This document shows positions 1,541-60,640 of a stretch of DNA of 64,000 bases, one piece after another. Origin of the DNA: Parvularcula sp. LCG005 (GTDB taxonomy: Bacteria > Pseudomonadota > Alphaproteobacteria > Caulobacterales > Parvularculaceae); the NCBI RefSeq assembly GCF_032930845.1, contig NZ_CP136758.1:2681001-2745000 (forward strand). Reading direction: 5' to 3'. The notes beneath the pieces were generated by a model. It was not told where the DNA came from. It worked only from the letters and a program-made list of their open reading frames with translations, and searched no databases. The translations under genes and the position numbers were made by a program. Positions within the stretch are counted from its first letter, which is position 1, and each line of letters begins with the position of its first letter.

Positions 1541-2785
1541 TTAGCGTTCAGCGCAATTTAACTGGTCGTATTCCATCTGGGTGGCCACCCCAACAACAGT
1601 GACGGCTCCACTCACTACCAAAGAAGCTCTCAACGCCAACTTTGACGCCCCCCTAACGACAGTCGTCCTCCAGCCTTCCTCGGTTGATATGCCCCAGGCC
1701 GCTCCACCCACGTAAGTAAAGATTCTCATCGTTTCAGCCATCGCCTCGCACTTCTCCTCGAGACTGAGCGGATGCTCACGGCTACAAATTCTAATCGCTG
1801 CTCCAGTTTTACCAGCGCATGCTTCTTTTCGGCTCGTTCTCTCACCATTTTGCTGACGTTGGCTTTGCCCTTCTTGATGCGTCGGCTCCGGCACATCCGG
1901 CCTAAAGGCTTCTTGTGCATCCCACCAAGCATCAAATTGGTCATCTGACGAACGGCTGTATCCACCACGGCCACAGCCACTGCCGCCGCAATCGACGACC
2001 ATCACATCATCAATCTCTTCCTCTGGGAAGAAATTTTGGAACAGCCCACTCGGGTCCCTGCCATTCACCGGGTCGCCGCCGACATAGGCGTACATGTGCA
2101 GGCCATCGCCATAGCCGATGGGATCGGTCTGCATGAACCGGCCAATGCCAGGGTGATAGGCCCGTGCCTTGTAGTGATAGAGGCCAGCCGTCTTCAGATA
2201 GATTTGGCCTGTATACTGAAAGCGCGTTGAGTTGGTGGACGACGGATCTCCATAATCGTCATATTTGTTCCGGGCCACATAGCCGCCGCTATTGTTCGTG
2301 ACCATGATGATGGAGCCGCGTTCATCCGCGCTCATATAGCGCCGCGTAGAGCTGCTCATGCTCGCGCCATTGTACCAGACAATCGGCTCATCCACGCCCG
2401 GGCCATGGACATAGCGCGCGATGATTGTACCTGAGCTGTTATACTCAGCGATGATATCTGCGCCATCATAGAGGAAGCGGCTGTCAATTGCAGTGCCACC
2501 GCCAATAGGCGTCCCCTGCTCCCGATATAAGCGCCCCTCAGGATCGTAGGTGTATGTCCCCGCGCCATTATTCGCGGTCTTCAGATGATTGTAGACGTCA
2601 TAGGTATACGCCGTCCCCCCGTCATTGGTCATGTTCCCACGACCATCATAGGTCATCTGGGTACCGCCGGTCTTCAGCAGCTGGTTCAGCCCGTTGGCTG
2701 TGTAGGTCTCTGACACCGCGCCCAACGCATCGTAATAGCCGCTATTGGTCTGGGACTTCGACGTGATCTGGCTGAAGGCGCCCAA
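1541..2785 (-). CDS. Orphan RHS C-terminal module (core end plus variable toxin region)
   Basis: The first 245 residues are almost the same as the corresponding part of the full RHS protein at 24609-28712. They include YD-type repeats, the motif GRFMQTDPIGYGDGL and the closing RDPSGL that marks the end of the RHS cage. About 165 unique residues follow, with a predicted hydrophobic helix near the C-terminus. The frame opens abruptly at about 2780, where similarity to the full-length gene stops, and there is no signal peptide or convincing ribosome binding site. It is therefore an orphan rhs-CT, normally silent unless recombined onto a full RHS gene. The toxic activity is unknown. Confidence 0.7.
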   Translation of the reverse strand: MGAFSQITSKSQTNSGYYDALGAVSETYTANGLNQLLKTGGTQMTYDGRGNMTNDGGTAYTYDVYNHLKTANNGAGTYTYDPEGRLYREQGTPIGGGTAIDSRFLYDGADIIAEYNSSGTIIARYVHGPGVDEPIVWYNGASMSSSTRRYMSADERGSIIMVTNNSGGYVARNKYDDYGDPSSTNSTRFQYTGQIYLKTAGLYHYKARAYHPGIGRFMQTDPIGYGDGLHMYAYVGGDPVNGRDPSGLFQNFFPEEEIDDVMVVDCGGSGCGRGGYSRSSDDQFDAWWDAQEAFRPDVPEPTHQEGQSQRQQNGERTSRKEACAGKTGAAIRICSREHPLSLEEKCEAMAETMRIFTYVGGAAWGISTEEGWRTTVVRGASKLALRASLVVSGAVTVVGVATQMEYDQLNCAER

Positions 2786-53406: not shown

Positions 53407-54345
53407 TCAGACCGATCCGCGCGACAGCCCATAGCTGAGCCGTAGGTTCGCCAAGGCCTGCGACGCGGCGCCTTTCAGCAAATTGTCGTGCACGCACGCA
53501 ATAGCGAGCATATTTGTCGCCGGATCGATCGCCGCGCCACCAATGACAGCGTTTGGCGTACCCGCCACCTGCCCGATTTCTGGCACGTCCGCCTGCACAC
53601 TGACGGTTGGATTATCAGCGTAGGCTCCGGCCAAACGTTCATTCACCTCGTCAACGTCTGTTCCGTCTCGCAATGGAGCCGCAATCGTCACGATCAGCCC
53701 GCGGAAGAACTGCGCCACATGGGGCATGAACCGGACCGGCCTGCCGATGGCAGCACCGATCTCGCCCTGATGACCATGGCCCGCAAAGCCGTAGGGCAGG
53801 ATATTATCGGCCAGCCTGACAGGGTCATTCTTCGGCCCCGGCGTTGTCCCGGCGCCCGAATAGCCGGACAAGCCGAACAGGGCGGGCGTCCCCGACAGAA
53901 GAGATGCCAAGGGATGCAGCGGCAGGATCCCCGCCGTGGCATAGCAGCCTGGATTGGCGATACGCTTGGCACCCTTGATTTCATCGGCCAGCAGATCGGA
54001 CAGACCAAAGATCCAGCCGTCCTTGTGCCGATAATCGGCGCTCAGATCGACAATAGTTGTTTCCGGCGAGATCCGGTCGAGAGCGTCCACAAAAGGGGCG
54101 GCCAGTCCATTGGGCAAGCCGAGAACAATCGCATCCAAACCGGCAGCGGCGATATCGTCAGCCGAAGGATCAGAGAATTCAAGATCGGTCGACACCGTAT
54201 CGAATACGCTTGAAATGGGCCGGCCTGCATGCTCACGCGACGTGGCCAGAGCGAGTTCGAAATCGCTGTCCCTTTCGATCAGCGCCATCATTTCCCGCCC
54301 GACATAGCCGCGCGCACCGACCAGACCAATTCTTCTGACGCTCAC
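53407..54345 (-). CDS. argC: N-acetyl-gamma-glutamyl-phosphate reductase
   Basis: The 312-residue enzyme makes N-acetylglutamate semialdehyde in the acetylated part of arginine synthesis. It shows the NADP-binding IGLVGARGYVGREMMALI at the N-terminus, LSADYRHKDG, and the active-site cysteine C134 in IANPGCYATAGILPL, followed by SGYSGAGTTPG and a histidine in FMPHVAQFF. It is the last gene of the minus-strand arg operon and overlaps argBA by four bases. The type is the shorter ArgC seen with fused NAGS/NAGK enzymes. No argD or argJ is in the window. Confidence 0.94.
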   Translation of the reverse strand: MSVRRIGLVGARGYVGREMMALIERDSDFELALATSREHAGRPISSVFDTVSTDLEFSDPSADDIAAAGLDAIVLGLPNGLAAPFVDALDRISPETTIVDLSADYRHKDGWIFGLSDLLADEIKGAKRIANPGCYATAGILPLHPLASLLSGTPALFGLSGYSGAGTTPGPKNDPVRLADNILPYGFAGHGHQGEIGAAIGRPVRFMPHVAQFFRGLIVTIAAPLRDGTDVDEVNERLAGAYADNPTVSVQADVPEIGQVAGTPNAVIGGAAIDPATNMLAIACVHDNLLKGAASQALANLRLSYGLSRGSV

Positions 54346-55661
54346 TTCGCATTCTCCACAAAGTCCGCCGGACGAGCGGCCAGTTCGCTGGCGAGCGGCA
54401 CAATATGGTCATCGAGATCCGTCCCGCACCAAAACACGAACCATGGGTCACGCCGGATAAAGCCGTCAGCCACAGCCGTATAAAAGGCGTTGAACGGATT
54501 ATTCGGACGCGACCGCCAGATGAGGCGCGGCGCCCGCTCGGCCAATTCCCGCCAGACCGCCTTGGCCAGCCCCTCTCCCCGCGCGTCTACGCTCACCGCG
54601 AACTTGTCGAGGCAGGAGATTCCGCCCAAGCGCGTCACGACCGCGGCGGCCCGATACCGCTCAGAGTGCAGGATAAAGTCGAGATCCGCCGTCTGCCAGA
54701 AATCATCCCGCAACGTACGGCCAAAGGCACCGTTAATCAGCGTGGTGAGCTTGTCTGTATCTGGCGAAGGCTCGGAAATAATCGCCTCGCCCTGACGGAT
54801 CAGCGTTCCGGCCCCGCCATGGGTGAACAGCTCTCGCATCAGGTGCGATGTATCCGTCATCGAAACCGAACTGGACGGCGGCAGGTCATCCAGCAGGGAT
54901 TTGATCTGGCTGAGCTTCAACGCCATCCCGGAATGGATCCAGTCTTCGGCCATCAGACGATCATAGTCGCTCTGCAAATTGATGGAGTCGATGATCGCGC
55001 CTTTCTCATCGAGCAGGCCGCCTGTCGAGGTCAGGAAAACGATCTTCTGTGGACTGACGGCACGGGCGACTTCGCGCGCAACGTCGTCCGCATTCACGTT
55101 GAGCAGACGGCCACGACTGTCCTGCCCCACGCAACAGATCAGGGGAATGGCCCGCGTGTGCAGAAGGTCATCAATGCCTTGCGCATTCACGCCGATGGCC
55201 CGGCCCACGCGGCCATATTTTTCCTCATCAAGCGGCTCCGCTTTCACGGTCGCGGGCGGCGCGAGAACGGCGCTGCCCCCCGCCGTACCGACGGCCTTGA
55301 CCAAGGACAGGCCGGTCGCTGCTGCCTCTTCCGCGACAATAGCAATAGCCTCGTCCGGGGTGACCCGCAGATTGTCCCGACGCTCTGTCTTGATGCCAGC
55401 CGCAGTCAGACGCGCGTCAAGCTGCGGTCCAGCGCCCAGCACAACAATCGGTTTGAGTTCGAGTGCCTGGAGCAGCGCGAGCCGCTCCGCAAGAGCCGCG
55501 CACTCTTCAGCGACGAGAGCGCCGCCTACCTTGATCACGGCAAAGCAACCGCCATTGGAGCGACTGAACTGTTGCAGATAGGTCCGGACCTCACGTCCTT
55601 CTTCCAGATTGGACAGAAGCAACGTCGCCCGTTCCCGGAAACTGAAACCGGCATCAGCCAT
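54342..55661 (-). CDS. argB: Bifunctional N-acetylglutamate synthase/kinase (vertebrate-like NAGS-K)
   Basis: The 439-residue protein joins an acetylglutamate kinase domain (about residues 1-285: FAVIKVGGALV, PIVVLGAGPQLD, NVNADDVAREVARAV, SGMALKLSQI) to a C-terminal GCN5-type acetyltransferase domain (about 290-435, with LGGISCLDKFAV, DARGEGLAKAVW and FYTAVADGF). This domain order is known for the NAGS/K enzymes of Maricaulis and Xanthomonas, which resemble animal NAGS. One protein would thus make N-acetylglutamate and phosphorylate it. It is preceded by argE' with an eight-base overlap. The usual arginine feedback site of hexameric NAGK may differ here, which raises the weight of transcriptional control. 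Confidence 0.93.
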   Translation of the reverse strand: MADAGFSFRERATLLLSNLEEGREVRTYLQQFSRSNGGCFAVIKVGGALVAEECAALAERLALLQALELKPIVVLGAGPQLDARLTAAGIKTERRDNLRVTPDEAIAIVAEEAAATGLSLVKAVGTAGGSAVLAPPATVKAEPLDEEKYGRVGRAIGVNAQGIDDLLHTRAIPLICCVGQDSRGRLLNVNADDVAREVARAVSPQKIVFLTSTGGLLDEKGAIIDSINLQSDYDRLMAEDWIHSGMALKLSQIKSLLDDLPPSSSVSMTDTSHLMRELFTHGGAGTLIRQGEAIISEPSPDTDKLTTLINGAFGRTLRDDFWQTADLDFILHSERYRAAAVVTRLGGISCLDKFAVSVDARGEGLAKAVWRELAERAPRLIWRSRPNNPFNAFYTAVADGFIRRDPWFVFWCGTDLDDHIVPLASELAARPADFVENAK

Positions 55662-56721
55662 GATTCACAATCCGTTCGTAAGCGGAATAGGCGAGCTCGA
55701 GTTGTTCGATTGTCACCCACTCATTCGCAGTGTGAGCCTGCGCAATATCGCCGGGCCCAAGAACGATGGCCGGCACCCCGGCAGCCGCAAACAGCGCCGC
55801 CTCGGTCCAGAAATTGACCGCTTCGCCCTTCTCAAGACCGACTTCGTCCAGCCACTGGGTGGCCTGTGCCTGTGCGAACCCGGCGGGCCCATCCACATCA
55901 TCCGGCAAGGCGGGACCCACAAACCGGATCATCCGTTCGGCATCGACAATATCAGAAGCTGCCGAATCGAAGGCTTCAAGAAGAGCCAGATGGTCGGTGC
56001 CCGGAAGAGCGCGAAAGCCGAACAGCAATTCAGCCGACGCAGCGATCATGTTCGGCTTCACACCGCCCTCGATCCGCCCAACGTTGAGACGGTTCTTCGC
56101 CGCCTCAGGATGGTCAAGCACGGCTGTGATCCACCGTGCGGCGTCATGGACAGCACTCTTGGCCTTTTCGCCGGAGGAGTGGCCACTGGTTCCTGTAAAG
56201 GCCATCTTGGCACTGAGGATACCGCGATGCTCCGTCACCGCCCGCACGGATGTTGGCTCTGCGATAATGGCCTGACGTACGGGTGGTGGCACCTCGAGAT
56301 AGCGGCGGATACAGGCGCTCTGCCCCGACTCCTCATCCGTCGACAGGACCAGGTGCATCGGTGCGGTCGTGCGAGACGCCAAGGCAAACAGACAAGCCGC
56401 TGCGCCCTTGATATCGCAGGCCCCGAGGCCATAGACCCTGCCATTCGTGACTTTCAGCGTGTGCGGATCGCTCTGCCACCCCTCCGCCACGGGAACCGTG
56501 TCCAGATGGACGTTGAACAGTACCGGCGCATCACCGCGAATGGCCTCAATGACGATCGATCCGCCCCCATAATCGTGCACCTTGATGTCAAAGCCGGGCA
56601 GCCGATCACGGACCGTCTGGACCAGCGGTCCGTCGGCCGTCACGGCGCGCGGCGGATTCTGCGTGTCCACCGCAACCAGCGCTTTGAGATGGTCGAGTAT
56701 GTTGTCTGTCAGTGCACTCAC
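55654..56721 (-). CDS. argE: N-acetylcitrulline deacetylase (M20 family)
   Basis: The 355-residue M20 peptidase-family enzyme has the metal ligands in LFNVHLDTVPVAEGW, YGLGACDIKGAAACLFAL, LSTDEESGQ and IIAEPTS, a dimerisation lid with GTSGHSSGEKAKSA, and the C-terminal histidine in GPGDIAQAHTANEWV. It is closest in my memory to the Xanthomonas acetylcitrulline deacetylase, in length and in motifs such as NFWTEAALFAAAGVPAIVLG. Its neighbour is an acetylornithine carbamoyltransferase, so the substrate should be N-acetylcitrulline and not N-acetylornithine. It overlaps argG by four bases and argBA by eight bases. Confidence 0.88.
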   Translation of the reverse strand: MSALTDNILDHLKALVAVDTQNPPRAVTADGPLVQTVRDRLPGFDIKVHDYGGGSIVIEAIRGDAPVLFNVHLDTVPVAEGWQSDPHTLKVTNGRVYGLGACDIKGAAACLFALASRTTAPMHLVLSTDEESGQSACIRRYLEVPPPVRQAIIAEPTSVRAVTEHRGILSAKMAFTGTSGHSSGEKAKSAVHDAARWITAVLDHPEAAKNRLNVGRIEGGVKPNMIAASAELLFGFRALPGTDHLALLEAFDSAASDIVDAERMIRFVGPALPDDVDGPAGFAQAQATQWLDEVGLEKGEAVNFWTEAALFAAAGVPAIVLGPGDIAQAHTANEWVTIEQLELAYSAYERIVNHG

Positions 56722-57914
56722 TTTGCCTGCTCACCTATTTGCCGCCAGAGTTGGGTGGATTGGCCCGAAAGCCGTGTGAAGCCTTGGGCTTCCGCGCCTG
56801 ACCACGCCGCTTTCTGCGCGTAGACTGAATCCTTCTTGCGCAGAATATAGGGTGACTTGACGGCAGCCGCCGTCACAACGCCGCCATGGGTCATCACCGT
56901 CACGTCACCGGACGTGCGGCCTTGGGACGATGTCAGATAGGCTTCAAGATCGTCACGCAGCGGATCAAAGAACCGACCATCATAGACAAGATCGACCCAC
57001 TGGTCGCCAACATCCCGGCGGAATGCATTTTGTGCCATTGACGAAACGGCCTCACAAAGCGCCGTATGCGCTGCTTCCAAGGCGAAGAGCCCGGGCGCTT
57101 CGAACACGATCCGGCCCTTCAGACCGACCAGCGTGTCGCCGGTATAAATATCATAGCCCACGCCATAAGGACCGAACCGCTCGTTCAGCGCTTTCAGCAT
57201 CGAGGCACCATCCATCGAATTGCCGTCGATTGCCACCGGGCGACCCTTGTCGAAGGTGATGACAACCTTCAGCGGCTCCGTCGGCCAATCTTTCGGCAAG
57301 GCAGTCAGGACGCGGGCATCCGCCTCCGGGACATCCCATTCATCAATCGGCCCGCCGGACAGCGTGGCGCCAAGCAGGTTCTCGTTCACCGAAAAGCGGC
57401 TGGCGCGCTCTGGCACGTCGAACCCGCGGGCGCGGAGAAACTCCATCTCATAGGCCCGGACATTTTCCTTGTCCTGAATATCCCGGATGGGCGCGATAAT
57501 TTTGGCATCAGTCAGGGCGGCGAGGCTGACGTCAAACCGCACCTGGTCGTTCCCCATGCCCGTGCAGCCATGGGCGATGGCGTTGGCGCCGACTTCCCTC
57601 GCCAGATCGACGCCCAACCGGGCGATGAGATAGCGGTCCGCGCACAGAACGGGATAGCGCCCCTGGCGCCGCGCGCCGCCTGCGAGGAACGGCACCACGA
57701 TTTCGTCCCACAGCATCGGCCCGGCATCAATGGTCCGGTGATCGACGGCACCAAGCTCTTTCGCACGCGCTGCGATCTTGGCCTCAGCCTGAGGATCAGC
57801 GCTGCCGGTGTGCACGTAATAGGTATAAACTTCGAAGCCTTCTTCTTTCAGGCTGGCAACGCAATAGGACGTATCCAGACCACCGGAAAACGCCAGAACG
57901 ACTTTCTTGCTCAT
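56718..57914 (-). CDS. argG: Argininosuccinate synthase
   Basis: The 398-residue enzyme joins citrulline and aspartate with ATP. I choose ATG 57914 (MSKKVVLAFSGGLDTSYC) because it overlaps the argF' stop by four bases and begins at the PP-loop SGGLDTS; the longer frame to 58052 lies inside argF'. Further features are GCTGMGNDQVRFD and the domain with FSVNENLLGATLSGGPIDEW. The sequence is of the divergent ArgG type also found in Xanthomonas and some other bacteria. Its product goes to ArgH, encoded on the other strand 1.3 kb away. Confidence 0.93.
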   Translation of the reverse strand: MSKKVVLAFSGGLDTSYCVASLKEEGFEVYTYYVHTGSADPQAEAKIAARAKELGAVDHRTIDAGPMLWDEIVVPFLAGGARRQGRYPVLCADRYLIARLGVDLAREVGANAIAHGCTGMGNDQVRFDVSLAALTDAKIIAPIRDIQDKENVRAYEMEFLRARGFDVPERASRFSVNENLLGATLSGGPIDEWDVPEADARVLTALPKDWPTEPLKVVITFDKGRPVAIDGNSMDGASMLKALNERFGPYGVGYDIYTGDTLVGLKGRIVFEAPGLFALEAAHTALCEAVSSMAQNAFRRDVGDQWVDLVYDGRFFDPLRDDLEAYLTSSQGRTSGDVTVMTHGGVVTAAAVKSPYILRKKDSVYAQKAAWSGAEAQGFTRLSGQSTQLWRQIGEQAK

Positions 57915-58918
57915 TGAGGCAATCCTTTGAGAACTGCGGACATGACCGCTTTTTGGACATGGAGGCGATTTTCCGCCTCGTCGATAATCAGGGAGCGGGG
58001 GCTGTCCGCCACCGCATCCGTCGCCTTCACATTCCGCCGCATGGGCAGGCAATGGCTGAAGGTCGCATTGTTCGTCATCGCCATCTTCTCTTCATCGACG
58101 ATGAAGTGCTTGAACGGCGCGCTCATTTCCTGCTGCGCTGGTACGTTGCCGAGCAGCGGGAGCGGCCCCCAGCTTTTGGCGTAAACGGCGTCCGCGCCCT
58201 GATAGGCTTCGGCGATATCGTGCGTCACGCTGAACGACCGGCCATTCTCTTTGGCAAACTGGGCGCCCGCGTCCATGTACCGCTCGTCCAGAAGATAGTC
58301 CTTGGTCGGACAGAGAAGCGTCACGTCCATCCCCATCTTGGTCGCCGCCAGGATCGCGGAGTTTGCCACCGCCGTATTGAGCGGCTTGGGGTGATAGGTC
58401 CATGTCATCACAAATTTCTTGCCGTCAAGATCGCCATGCGCCTCCTGCAGGGCCAGCAGCATGGCCAGCTCCTGACACGGGTGGACGATCGTCTCCATAT
58501 TGATGATCGGCACGGTCGCATATTTGGCGAAGGCGGAGAGCATGGGGTCTTCGCGCTCTTCAGCCCAGTTCTTGAACTTCGGAAATGCGCGGATGCAGAT
58601 CAGATCCACATAGCGGGAGAGGACGCGGGCCGCTTCCTTGGCGTGCTCTTCAGGATCACCATCCATCACCGCCCCGTCAGAGAATTCGACCGGCCATGTG
58701 CCCGCCGCATCCAGCACCACCGCCTGCGCACCAAGCTGATGCGCGCCAACCTGAAAGGAGGTCCGTGTCCTCAACGACGGATTGTAGAAGACAAGCGCGA
58801 TCGATTTGCCTTCGAGACGTTTCTGGTGCGGCGAGGCTTTCAGCGCACGGGCATCGGCCAACAGGGCCTCCAGCTCGAGACGGGACCAGTCGGCGGTTGT
58901 CAGGAAGTTCTTGGGCAT
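57911..58918 (-). CDS. argF': N-acetylornithine carbamoyltransferase
   Basis: The 335-residue enzyme closely follows Xanthomonas AOTCase. It has the carbamoyl phosphate loop PSLRTRTS (47-54), TWPVEFSDGAVMDGDPEEH with the glutamate (E90, E92 in the Xanthomonas enzyme) that favours acetyl- over succinyl-ornithine, NMETIVHPCQELAMLLALQE, LTWTYHPKPLNTAV-type TWTYHPKPLNTAVANSA, and FSHCLPMRRNVKATD with the lysine that is carboxylated in AOTCase. Ordinary ornithine carbamoyltransferase has DxxxSMG and HPxQ motifs that are absent. The route therefore carbamoylates N-acetylornithine. It is the first structural gene of the arg operon, and its leader carries an attenuator. Confidence 0.92.
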   Translation of the reverse strand: MPKNFLTTADWSRLELEALLADARALKASPHQKRLEGKSIALVFYNPSLRTRTSFQVGAHQLGAQAVVLDAAGTWPVEFSDGAVMDGDPEEHAKEAARVLSRYVDLICIRAFPKFKNWAEEREDPMLSAFAKYATVPIINMETIVHPCQELAMLLALQEAHGDLDGKKFVMTWTYHPKPLNTAVANSAILAATKMGMDVTLLCPTKDYLLDERYMDAGAQFAKENGRSFSVTHDIAEAYQGADAVYAKSWGPLPLLGNVPAQQEMSAPFKHFIVDEEKMAMTNNATFSHCLPMRRNVKATDAVADSPRSLIIDEAENRLHVQKAVMSAVLKGLPQ

Positions 58919-58955
58919 GTCTCTCTCGTGATCGTCACAGTCAGTCGAACCAAAT

Positions 58956-58979
58956 AAAAAAACCGGCGCAAGCGGCCGG
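58956..58979 (-). terminator. Intrinsic terminator in the argF' leader (attenuator)
   Basis: Read on the minus strand, CCGGC, a seven-base loop and GCCGG are followed by TTTTTTT. It lies 37 bp upstream of the argF' start and about 29 bases downstream of the stop of an arginine-rich leader peptide, so it can only act as an attenuator. The repeated CCGG and GGCC sequences just upstream offer alternative pairings. Confidence 0.75.
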
Positions 58980-59002
58980 CCGGGTCGGAGCAGATGAGGG
59001 TC

Positions 59003-59020
59003 GTTCGCCTAGTCGCGAAC
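59003..59020 (-). promoter_or_regulatory. Hairpin over the leader stop codon (possible pause or competing structure)
   Basis: GTTCGC, GACTAG and GCGAAC form a perfect 6-bp stem whose loop contains the TAG stop of the leader peptide. In attenuators a hairpin that overlaps the end of the leader peptide pauses polymerase and competes with the antiterminator. Confidence 0.55.
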
Positions 59021-59095
59021 CCCGCAAGCCCCAGCGCACCGGCGCGAAATCGCGCGGCGTCGGTATGGAAGAAGGGCGTGGACAGCTGAGGTCAT
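59009..59095 (-). CDS. argL: Arginine-rich leader peptide of the arg operon
   Basis: The 28-codon frame from ATG 59095 to TAG 59009 encodes a peptide with six arginines, including three in a row and a further pair (YRRRAISRRCAG). It ends about 29 bases before an intrinsic terminator and 91 bases before argF'. The layout is that of trpL-type attenuation: when charged arginyl-tRNA is scarce the ribosome would stall at the CGA-CGC-CGC or CGC-CGG codons and change RNA folding. No Shine-Dalgarno is visible, but a promoter lies so that transcription would begin at the ATG itself, as known for leaderless trpL in Sinorhizobium. The symbol is my proposal. Confidence 0.65.
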   Translation of the reverse strand: MTSAVHALLPYRRRAISRRCAGACGVRD

Positions 59096-59102
59096 GGCGC
59101 GG

Positions 59103-59131
59103 CTTATATGAGCCCGCCCCCCTTAACGCAA
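59103..59131 (-). promoter_or_regulatory. Predicted promoter of the arg operon giving a leaderless transcript
   Basis: On the minus strand a -35 element TTGCGT (59131-59126), a 17-bp spacer and a -10 element TATAAG (59108-59103) are followed by seven bases and the ATG of the leader peptide. The expected transcription start is therefore the A of the ATG at 59095. Confidence 0.55.
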
Positions 59132-59242
59132 GCACGAATCGGCGATTACTCAGCCGCAACAAGGCAGAAAACTGCCAAATGACCCGTCGACAGAGAGGGT
59201 CTTTTCGATAAAAAGCCCTCAAACGCAAACAAGGACCCCGCC

Positions 59243-60640
59243 ATGACCGAGAAAACGCCCCAGACAAAGTCCGCCATGTGGGGTGGCCGGTTTGCGGAAG
59301 GTCCCGCCGAAGCCATGCAGCGCTTCAACGCGTCGATCGATGAAGACAAGCGCCTGGCGATGGAAGATATTGACGGCTCAATTGCTCATGCCGCCATGCT
59401 CGGGGGCCAAGGCATCATCACGGCGGATGAAGCCGAGACGCTCATTGATGGCCTTGAGACGGTCCGCGGCGAGATCAAGACCGGTCATTTCACCTGGAAG
59501 CTTGAACTGGAAGACGTTCACATGAACGTCGAAAGCCGCCTGCGCGAAGTGGTGGGCGACGTGGCAGGCAAGCTGCACACCGGGCGGTCGCGCAATGATC
59601 AGGTGGCAACAGACATTCGGCTTTATACCCGCCGTGCGCTCGACCAGATGGTGGAGATGGTGCGGCAGGTGCAGAAGGCGTTTCTGGATCAGGCCAAAGG
59701 TCACGAAGAAACGGTGATGCCGGGCTTCACCCATTTGCAGATCGCCCAGCCGATTTCCTATGCTTTTTACTGCCTCGCCTATGTGGAGATGTTCGAACGC
59801 GACCGGCTTCGACTGCTCGGCGTGCGTGAGCTGTTGAATGAGTCTCCGCTTGGTGCCGCCGCGCTCGCGGGCACGCCCCATCCGATCAATCGGGAGCAGA
59901 CGGCCAAGGCGCTCGGCTTCGACCGCCCCTGCCGCAATGCGCTTGATGCCGTTTCGGCGCGTGACTTTGTGCTGGATACCGTGGCAGTGGCCAGCCTCTG
60001 CGCCACCCATATTTCGCGGTATGCGGAGGAAGTGGTCATCTATGCCACGCCGCAATTCGGCTATTTCCGCGTCGGCGATGCCTACTCCACCGGCAGCTCT
60101 ATCATGCCGCAGAAACGCAATCCGGATGCCGCCGAACTGCTCCGCGCCAAGGTCGGATCGATCGCCGGCGCGTTCACCACACTGACTCTCTGCACCAAGG
60201 GTCTGCCACTGGCCTATTCAAAAGATCTGCAGGACACCAAGAAGCCGATGATGGATGCCCTCGACACGCTGGGCATGTCATTGGACATCCTGGCCCGGAT
60301 GATCGACTCCACAACCATCAACGCCGCCGCCATGGAACGCGACGCAAGCCGCGGCTATTCCACCGCAACCGACCTGGCCGATCAGCTGGCCGCCGCGGGC
60401 ACGCCGTTCCGTGATGCCCACCATATTGTCGGCGCGCTGGTCGCCTATTGCGAAAAAAATGACCTGATGCTGCATGAAGTGCCGCTTAGCGATGCCGTGA
60501 AGATCAGCCCCAGGATCAACCAGGATATGCTGGACCGCCTCACGCCGCTCGCGTCAATCTGCGCCAAGCGCAGTGCTGGCAGCACCGCGCCGGAAGAAGT
60601 GTTGAAGCAGATCGCATTCTGGGAAGACGCGCTGGCCTAG
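59243..60640 (+). CDS. argH: Argininosuccinate lyase
   Basis: The 465-residue enzyme cleaves argininosuccinate to arginine and fumarate, the last step of the pathway. Signatures are MWGGRFAEGPAEAMQRFNAS, LHTGRSRNDQVATDIRLY, GFTHLQIAQPISY and the fumarase/lyase loop GSSIMPQKRNPDAAELLRAK. AAGGA lies seven bases before the ATG. It is divergent from the arg operon across a 324-bp control region and may share regulation with it. Its stop overlaps the stop of the convergent receptor gene by three bases in CTAG. Confidence 0.96.
   Translation: MTEKTPQTKSAMWGGRFAEGPAEAMQRFNASIDEDKRLAMEDIDGSIAHAAMLGGQGIITADEAETLIDGLETVRGEIKTGHFTWKLELEDVHMNVESRLREVVGDVAGKLHTGRSRNDQVATDIRLYTRRALDQMVEMVRQVQKAFLDQAKGHEETVMPGFTHLQIAQPISYAFYCLAYVEMFERDRLRLLGVRELLNESPLGAAALAGTPHPINREQTAKALGFDRPCRNALDAVSARDFVLDTVAVASLCATHISRYAEEVVIYATPQFGYFRVGDAYSTGSSIMPQKRNPDAAELLRAKVGSIAGAFTTLTLCTKGLPLAYSKDLQDTKKPMMDALDTLGMSLDILARMIDSTTINAAAMERDASRGYSTATDLADQLAAAGTPFRDAHHIVGALVAYCEKNDLMLHEVPLSDAVKISPRINQDMLDRLTPLASICAKRSAGSTAPEEVLKQIAFWEDALA

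Follow-up and report, generated by a model that had tools for sequence, protein, structure and literature searches.

Ribosome-mediated attenuation is a textbook mode of control for several amino acids, and the synthesis of arginine (Arg) in bacteria is usually described as controlled by ArgR. Here, a stretch of 64,000 nucleotides (nt) from Parvularcula sp. LCG005 was analysed (contig NZ_CP136758.1, positions 2,681,001 to 2,745,000; hereafter the window, in whose coordinates its features are given). In the window, an arginine-biosynthesis operon headed by argF', the gene of N-acetylornithine carbamoyltransferase, is preceded by a short Arg-rich frame and a terminator. From sequence comparison and computed folding, we conclude that this leader is very probably an arginine-specific, ribosome-mediated transcription attenuator. 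The trpL leader of Sinorhizobium, reportedly a leaderless attenuator peptide, resembles it as an attenuator leader peptide of an alphaproteobacterium, but trpL senses tryptophan, while the window leader would sense arginine.

Other described systems share parts of this layout (papers are cited by PubMed Central accession, each for an excerpt of its text). Like the trp and his attenuators (PMC1183508), the window has a leader frame with codons for the end product, an antiterminator, and a terminator before the first gene; it differs from them in the amino acid, arginine, and in the AUG, which coincides with the predicted 5' end or is 2 nt away from it. In Salmonella, two consecutive Arg codons of orf34, upstream of speF, sense arginine via ribosome pausing, as the window leader would, but speF is a decarboxylase gene, and its control involves Rho and RNase G rather than an intrinsic terminator before a biosynthetic operon (PMC6386406). 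Rare Arg codons in the rbfL leader peptide of S. aureus likewise sense arginine limitation; unlike the window leader, rbfL blocks translation initiation of rbf, and no arg gene is involved (PMC13009471). The betaproteobacterial carA motif is also a structured RNA before a gene of arginine and pyrimidine synthesis, but it is an imperfect hairpin for which the excerpt mentions no Arg leader frame (PMC8632094). Finally, the Xoo5 RNA (Rfam RF02242) has the same layout and the same place before argF' as the window leader, but was described as an independent small RNA (sRNA) of unknown function (PMC3039613). Among the results listed in searches of open-access literature, there was no attenuator at an arginine-biosynthesis operon, though an earlier mention elsewhere is possible. 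The nearest cases found, speF orf34 and rbfL, act differently.

The leader is on the minus strand, in the 324-base-pair (bp) gap between the divergent argH (59243-60640, plus strand) and argF' (58918-57911, minus strand). A first-pass annotation of the window had placed there a promoter, a frame, a hairpin over the stop codon and a terminator with seven U's, and each part was found where it had been put. The -35-like hexamer, TTGCGT (59131-59126), matches the sigma-70 consensus at three of six positions, and the -10-like hexamer, TATAAG (59108-59103), at five of six, with a 17-bp spacer between them. TTGCGC occurs at a comparable distance in loci L033 and L100. A strict scan of the window region for sigma-70 consensus promoters returned no sites, and the -35 element, at three of six, is weak. 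Seven bases separate TATAAG from an ATG at 59095, which opens a predicted frame of 28 codons (59095-59009; MTSAVHALLPYRRRAISRRCAGACGVRD, then a stop codon). Its six Arg codons, three in a row and then two, as annotated, are codons 12-14, 18-19 and 27. Codons 12-14, CGA CGC CGC (Arg-Arg-Arg; 59062-59054), are the putative regulatory codons, and codons 18-19, CGC CGG (Arg-Arg; 59044-59039), are partly inside the predicted antiterminator strand. A hairpin of six pairs, GTTCGC-GACTAG-GCGAAC (59020-59003), holds the stop codon in its loop. The intrinsic terminator consists of a hairpin at 58981-58961 and a T7 tract at 58962-58956. Thus, to judge from the sequence, a short frame lies between a predicted promoter and argF' and is followed by an intrinsic terminator. 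Codons for the end product are clustered in it before an arginine operon (codons 12-14 and 18-19), a feature that is weak against shuffles for the window alone.

From the promoter spacing and the start of the Xoo5 family, transcription is predicted to begin at 59095-59097, at the AUG or at most 2 nt from it. As proposed, the leader peptide may be leaderless. The spacing from promoter to AUG fits this, and resembles that of the Stenotrophomonas locus L033, in which the start of the Xoo5 family lies 2 nt ahead of the AUG; on the other side, three leaders of the same genus (L006, L030 and L065) have an AAGGA-like motif ahead of GTG, so the leaderless form is not constant in the genus. The best account of these sequences is an attenuator that, over some of its range at least, would be close to leaderless.

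Such an attenuator would work as follows. Transcription would start at or next to the AUG of the short Arg-rich frame, and the first ribosome would trail RNA polymerase. When charged arginyl-tRNA is scarce, the ribosome would stall on the clustered, CGA-rich Arg codons; the RNA just ahead of it would then pair with the terminator arms, allowing read-through into argF'-argG-argE-NAGS/K-argC. When arginine is plentiful, the ribosome would reach the stop codon and cover the antiterminator RNA, the terminator would form, and only a short leader RNA would be made. Leader translation, stalling, read-through and the response to arginine are what we infer from the layout and the comparisons below.

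Folding was computed for the RNA beyond the ribosome only, with an assumed footprint of 13 nt past the first base of the A-site codon. In the window, the computed probability of the terminator was 0.02 or less with the ribosome on codons 9-14 (0.00 on R12-R14), 0.83-0.88 on codons 18-19, and 0.84 at the stop codon. With the ribosome on codons 12-14, an antiterminator strand (59043-59019) was predicted to pair with both terminator arms (58985-58962): GCCGGUGCG (59043-59035) would bind the 3' arm (58970-58962), and nucleotides 59030-59019 the 5' arm region (58985-58974). A ribosome on codon 18 partly covers the antiterminator strand, so the terminator is predicted to form. In L002, L006 and SAR86 locus L042, the probability of the terminator likewise drops to near 0 around the Arg codons, and leader shuffles as good on both measures numbered, out of 400, one for L002, two for L004, and none for L006 or L042. 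In computed folds of the window, an antiterminator exclusive with the terminator is set by the position of the ribosome; against shuffles, support for this is modest for the window and stronger for L002, L006, L042 and the gammaproteobacterial (gamma) group treated below.

To follow the layout in relatives, a detector was used that requires a strong terminator and, in a short frame, a stretch of six codons with at least three Arg. In the ten genomes of the same genus, the window included, five are positive (L001, L002, L004, L006 and L030); the leader peptides of the genus have Arg clusters in common and little else. Five consecutive Arg occur in L002, the nearest relative. When its terminator was kept and the DNA before it shuffled, none of 400 shuffles equalled the density and run of Arg of L002; the same control gave 3/400 for L004, 7/400 for L030 and 32/400 for L006. 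Among 56 alphaproteobacterial argF' upstream regions (two of them, L024 and L051, shorter than 330 bases; G049, whose gene is split over contigs, was left out), seven have frame and terminator, compared with 6 of 560 shuffles. The positives are the five of the genus, L072, and a doubtful L070.

The two positives from outside the five differ from each other. L072, from another family of the order, has a strong terminator after a frame with HGRRRACP (1813-1979) and is a possible candidate only. L070 (1534-1562, minus strand) has a strong terminator 17 bases before argF' and no convincing Arg leader frame; it passes the detector, yet its long frame resembles coding sequence, and it was rejected as a leader. 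In the genus itself, L005 has no terminator, and an in-frame CGA AGA CGA CGA stands directly before the AAGGAG and GTG of argF' (2485-2544, minus strand), which may be a relic of the control or a version of it that acts on translation. In L003, L007 and L008, the DNA upstream of argF' resembles the 3' end of another gene and not the divergent argH.

The layout is also seen in a distant gammaproteobacterial order, that of Stenotrophomonas. In this order, 125 of the 151 sampled genomes have argF'. Upstream regions of at least 330 bases numbered 121 (from the 122 regions L076-L197, L140, with 215 bases, was excluded; also outside the set are G103 and G105, which are L039 and L041, and G163, cut at a contig end). 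A strong terminator was found in 109 of the 121, compared with 18/605 dinucleotide shuffles and 24/660 windows drawn from elsewhere in 30 of the gamma loci; terminator and Arg frame together were found in 106, compared with 5/605 shuffles and 7/660 other windows. At least four Arg within six codons were present in 44 of 106 real leaders and in 39 of 530 shuffles with the terminator kept. Many of these leaders carry MTSRARRP, and others carry RRRRR, RRLRRP or VVRRRRP. An absence of the Arg codons or of the terminator in relatives had been named beforehand as the observation that would speak against the attenuator; with 5 of 10 genomes of the genus and 106 of 121 gamma regions positive, the comparison turned out in its favor.

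A set of 18 named argF' loci gave eight detector positives (L031, L033, L036, L039, L041, L042, L043 and L048), of which L031 and L033 duplicate L002 and L089; a further locus, L044, is positive by eye. Arg-rich frame and terminator are thus seen in Stenotrophomonas, a Lysobacteraceae metagenome-assembled genome (MAG), SAR86 MAGs and a gammaproteobacterial single-cell genome. The other nine named loci are negative, including those of Sorangium, two Marinicaulis, Wenzhouxiangella, Oceanicaulis and Pyrinomonadaceae. The SAR86 loci L042, L043 and L044 and the single-cell L048 have a frame of 14 codons with RLRR or PRR, and then a terminator. This short leader (MINTNTRLRRVPAL and kin) lies before argF' at 2884-2973 in L042, L043 and L048, and it is also seen in L044. 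In these SAR86 and single-cell leaders, the region of the stop codon is complementary to the terminator arm.

Many gamma leaders have a frame whose last part is complementary to the 5' arm of the terminator, GCTGGGTAA and ACCCAGC being one example. Pairing of leaders with their own arms, in 104 distinct gamma loci, had a mean of -12.5 kcal/mol, compared with -11.0 kcal/mol for permuted partners, and none of 10,000 permutations was as good (identical pairs were counted once, which reduced 113 to 104; kinship was uncorrected). Mononucleotide-shuffled leaders paired with the arm at -7.4 kcal/mol, and 82 of the 104 loci paired better with their own arm than with the mean of partners having a different arm. 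In leaders that end in Ala-Gly-stop, the combination of third Ala-codon base and arm base was U/A in 19, C/G in 22, U/G in one and C/A in none (identical pairs once, 47 reduced to 42; 14 of the 61 MTSRARR loci, which do not end in Ala-Gly, excluded). In another gamma group, both sides have changed differently, to GCCAGGTT in the frame (4 of 5 loci) and AACCTGG in the arm.

Sequestration of the 5' arm before the 3' arm has been made was also computed; this measure was added after the gamma result for finished transcripts, given below. In 84 of 106 gamma leaders, the 5' arm was predicted to be sequestered more with the ribosome on the Arg codons than with the ribosome at the stop codon, and the reverse was seen in three. 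The means were 0.88 on Arg and 0.31 at stop, and shuffled leaders reached 0.56 on Arg.

The choice among Arg codons provides a separate line of evidence. According to a theoretical study, an attenuator can be highly sensitive only if specific codons of a synonymous set serve as its regulatory codons (PMC1183508). In the Arg clusters of the five alphaproteobacterial leaders, CGA accounts for 11 of 20 Arg codons, compared with 2 of 93 in their argF' genes. The first regulatory codon of the window leader is CGA, a codon found at 2 of the 112 Arg positions of the window operon. CGA is read slowly via inosine. In the gamma leader clusters it makes up 111 of 375 Arg codons, compared with 36 of 894 in argF', counts that are noisy because some automatically chosen frames are probably wrong (e.g., L081 and L117). 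For the loci that were fetched by place, argF' is covered over about its first 200 bases. In the MTSRARR loci, the third Arg is CGA in 58 of 61, and at the first two Arg positions every codon except one is CGT or CGC.

The MTSRARR leaders also bear on a different explanation, nascent-peptide sensing, in which the leader peptide would bind arginine or a related metabolite in the ribosome tunnel and arrest translation, so that the peptide sequence is the sensor. SpeFL, with ornithine, is a precedent. In its favor, the MTSRARR block is conserved as protein in 61 loci (52 distinct sequences) although its synonymous sites differ, and speF provides a case of upstream Arg codons that act by another mechanism (PMC6386406). 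Outside this block, however, the peptides share little beyond Arg clusters such as RRRR, RRLRRP and YRRR, and the CGA codon itself is favoured, which a peptide sensor would not need, although RNA structure may be what keeps the TCG and CGA codons of the block nearly fixed. Moreover, if abundant arginine caused the arrest, read-through in this layout would go up, the opposite of what a biosynthetic operon requires. We consider peptide sensing unlikely.

A number of observations weigh against Arg-codon attenuation, and the first group concerns the window itself. When the upstream DNA was shuffled and the terminator of the window left in place, 142 of 400 shuffles had an Arg cluster of equal density, and 37 of 400 had a run of three Arg as well. 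The rarity of frame plus terminator is largely that of the terminator, and the window frame alone is therefore not beyond chance. The folding energy of the whole leader is ordinary for its composition (z -0.13); being no better than that of shuffles, it was not taken as evidence, and folding by ribosome position was used instead. On that test, 91 of 400 leader shuffles were as good as the window on the Arg measure and 17 on both measures. These figures speak for chance, with an Arg-rich frame of GC-rich DNA that happens to lie ahead of an unrelated terminator. We give this account a very slim chance for the window, as it would leave the presence of a terminator between the divergent promoter region and argF' unexplained, the Arg runs of L002, L004 and L030 are rare in shuffles, and the first regulatory codon is the scarce CGA. 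Since the window frame is weak on its own, the case for Arg-codon attenuation rests on the relatives and on codon choice; support from the comparison is good, and support from the window alone modest.

The second group of contrary observations concerns the relatives. L065, a sixth genome of the genus with a frame (RLRRRLPRR), has no clear terminator, and L003, L005, L007 and L008 have no frame with terminator. The latter four form one clade on the argF' tree (Shimodaira-Hasegawa-like approximate likelihood ratio test, SH-aLRT, 99), so that, given an ancestral leader, it would most simply have been lost once. None of 41 argF' upstream regions from other genera of the same family was positive, and the Oceanicaulis locus, L046, does not have the layout. 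Ordinary argF genes of the same order, sampled as 20 of 36 matches, were positive in 0 of 20, with a strong terminator in two. L030 showed no switch by ribosome-position folding. In the five alphaproteobacterial leaders, sequestration before the 3' arm averaged 0.65 on Arg, barely above the 0.59 of shuffles, and 0.49 at stop, and it exceeded the stop state by 0.3 in two of the five. Finished gamma transcripts were computed to favor the terminator mostly in both states, with a switch above 0.3 in 27 of 104 and the reverse in one. The Ala-Gly covariation, overwhelming by a Fisher test, corresponds to about one event on the tree, and its p value was therefore not relied on. Finally, with gamma terminators kept and the upstream DNA shuffled, the frame criterion was still met in 188 of 530.

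An ordinary leader fold and the frequency of Arg-rich frames in shuffled GC-rich DNA would also suit attenuation by another route (Rho, a protein that binds the RNA, or occlusion of the argF' start), in which the Arg frame would play no part. This account deserves hardly any weight: an Arg frame accompanies 106 of the 109 strong terminators in the 121 gamma regions, well above the rate in the terminator-kept shuffles just given, and the CGA bias and the pairing of frame ends with their own terminator arms also speak against it.

The product of a leader of this type may have been seen already. The Rfam family RF02242, "Xanthomonadaceae sRNA Xoo5", coincides with argF' leaders of Xanthomonadaceae. 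In the 151 genomes, all 18 matches over the threshold, and 34 of 36 overall, lie 61-209 bases upstream of argF' on the same strand. In three loci checked (L033, L218 and L219), the match starts 2 nt before the leader AUG. Liang et al. in 2011, working on the rice-blight bacterium, determined the 5' end of Xoo5 by rapid amplification of cDNA ends (RACE), cloned the RNA and gave its length as 124 nt (PMC3039613). This is the length of the Rfam model, and the first position of the model was accordingly taken as the RACE end. In the tables of the same paper, Xoo5 is upstream of PXO_00353, which another part of the paper lists as N-acetylornithine carbamoyltransferase; the words arginine, argF and leader are absent from its main text. 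Judged from these coincidences in place and sequence, Xoo5 is the argF' leader of Xanthomonadaceae. In the window, the region 58700-59400 has no match to the Xoo5 covariance model at an E value of 1 or below, while the gamma relatives do match; the window leader would work alike but is no member of RF02242 by sequence. For the window, a T-box or another Rfam family was also considered and rejected, the best hit being Hrs13 at 14.6 bits (gathering threshold, 52).

The Xoo5 data suit attenuation imperfectly, and the published view, that of a trans-acting sRNA, has to be considered. In it, the frame and terminator serve the sRNA, and argF' is transcribed from another promoter. Northern analysis showed discrete RNAs of two sizes, about 130 and 100 nt, that varied with growth phase (PMC3039613). 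Both sizes are below that of the terminated transcript, and the cloned RNA stops before it reaches the terminator, which counts against an attenuator product as such; the RNA may be processed. Deletion of Xoo5 had no growth phenotype and, according to the authors, left flanking genes unaffected (PMC3039613), a result unfavorable to control of argF'. The lack of phenotype also speaks against an sRNA acting in trans, and Xoo5 was judged likely to be Hfq-independent (PMC3039613). Its place just upstream of argF' on the same strand, in every match over the threshold, and the recurrence across lineages of the Arg cluster and terminator but not of the RNA sequence, also argue against this view, which we regard as highly improbable.

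Attenuation by Arg codons also accords with the distribution of ArgR. The window genome, a single contig, has no match to the ArgR family PF01316; a control search with PF01316 gave matches in 9 of 14 known genomes. Over 100 relatives, there were two matches at an E value of 0.001 or below and only one above the family cut-off, a partial match (positions 31-66 of 70) in an assembly of 830 contigs. ArgR is present in one of the ten genomes behind the named loci. In the order of Stenotrophomonas, it was found in 8 of 151 genomes, in none of the 125 with argF' and in 8 of the 26 without it (Fisher p 2.8e-7, uncorrected for kinship). The proposal of ribosome-mediated attenuation, which came from the first-pass annotation, is thus supported by recurrence in relatives, mutually exclusive computed folds, CGA bias and the lack of an ArgR match. 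ArgR control of the window operon was considered and set aside as unsupported, the genome having no PF01316 match.

On balance, we favor a broader view, in which many proteobacteria that use argF' would as a rule have Arg-codon attenuation in place of ArgR. On this view the attenuator goes back to the ancestor of the window's genus, is nearly universal in the Stenotrophomonas order as sampled and occurs in SAR86, and its product has been on record since 2011 as "sRNA Xoo5". The leader sequences are so unlike that the attenuator may have arisen more than once. This view offers an answer to how bacteria that lack ArgR can control arginine synthesis, and makes arginine one more amino acid that would be sensed at a biosynthetic operon through the translation of a leader. 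It also points to CGA as a regulatory codon and would give an orphan Rfam sRNA a function.

The genes around the leader were assigned by family models. Divergent argH (TIGR00838) scored 544.3 bits (cut-off 279.5). On the minus strand, the first gene, argF' (57911..58918; NF003384, 527.7 bits, cut-off 288), is overlapped by argG, argininosuccinate synthase (56718..57917; TIGR00032, 276.4 bits, cut-off 268.2). These are followed by an argE-like deacetylase gene (55654..56721; NF006439, 421 bits, cut-off 345) and by the gene of a fused acetylglutamate kinase/synthase, NAGS/K, with kinase and NAT domains (54342..55661; NF003387, 498 bits, cut-off 426; PF00696 and PF04768). The last of the overlapping series is argC (53407..54345; TIGR01850, 233.8 bits, cut-off 233.6). 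From argF' to argC (53407-58918), each pair of genes overlaps by 4-8 bases, which suggests one translationally coupled unit.
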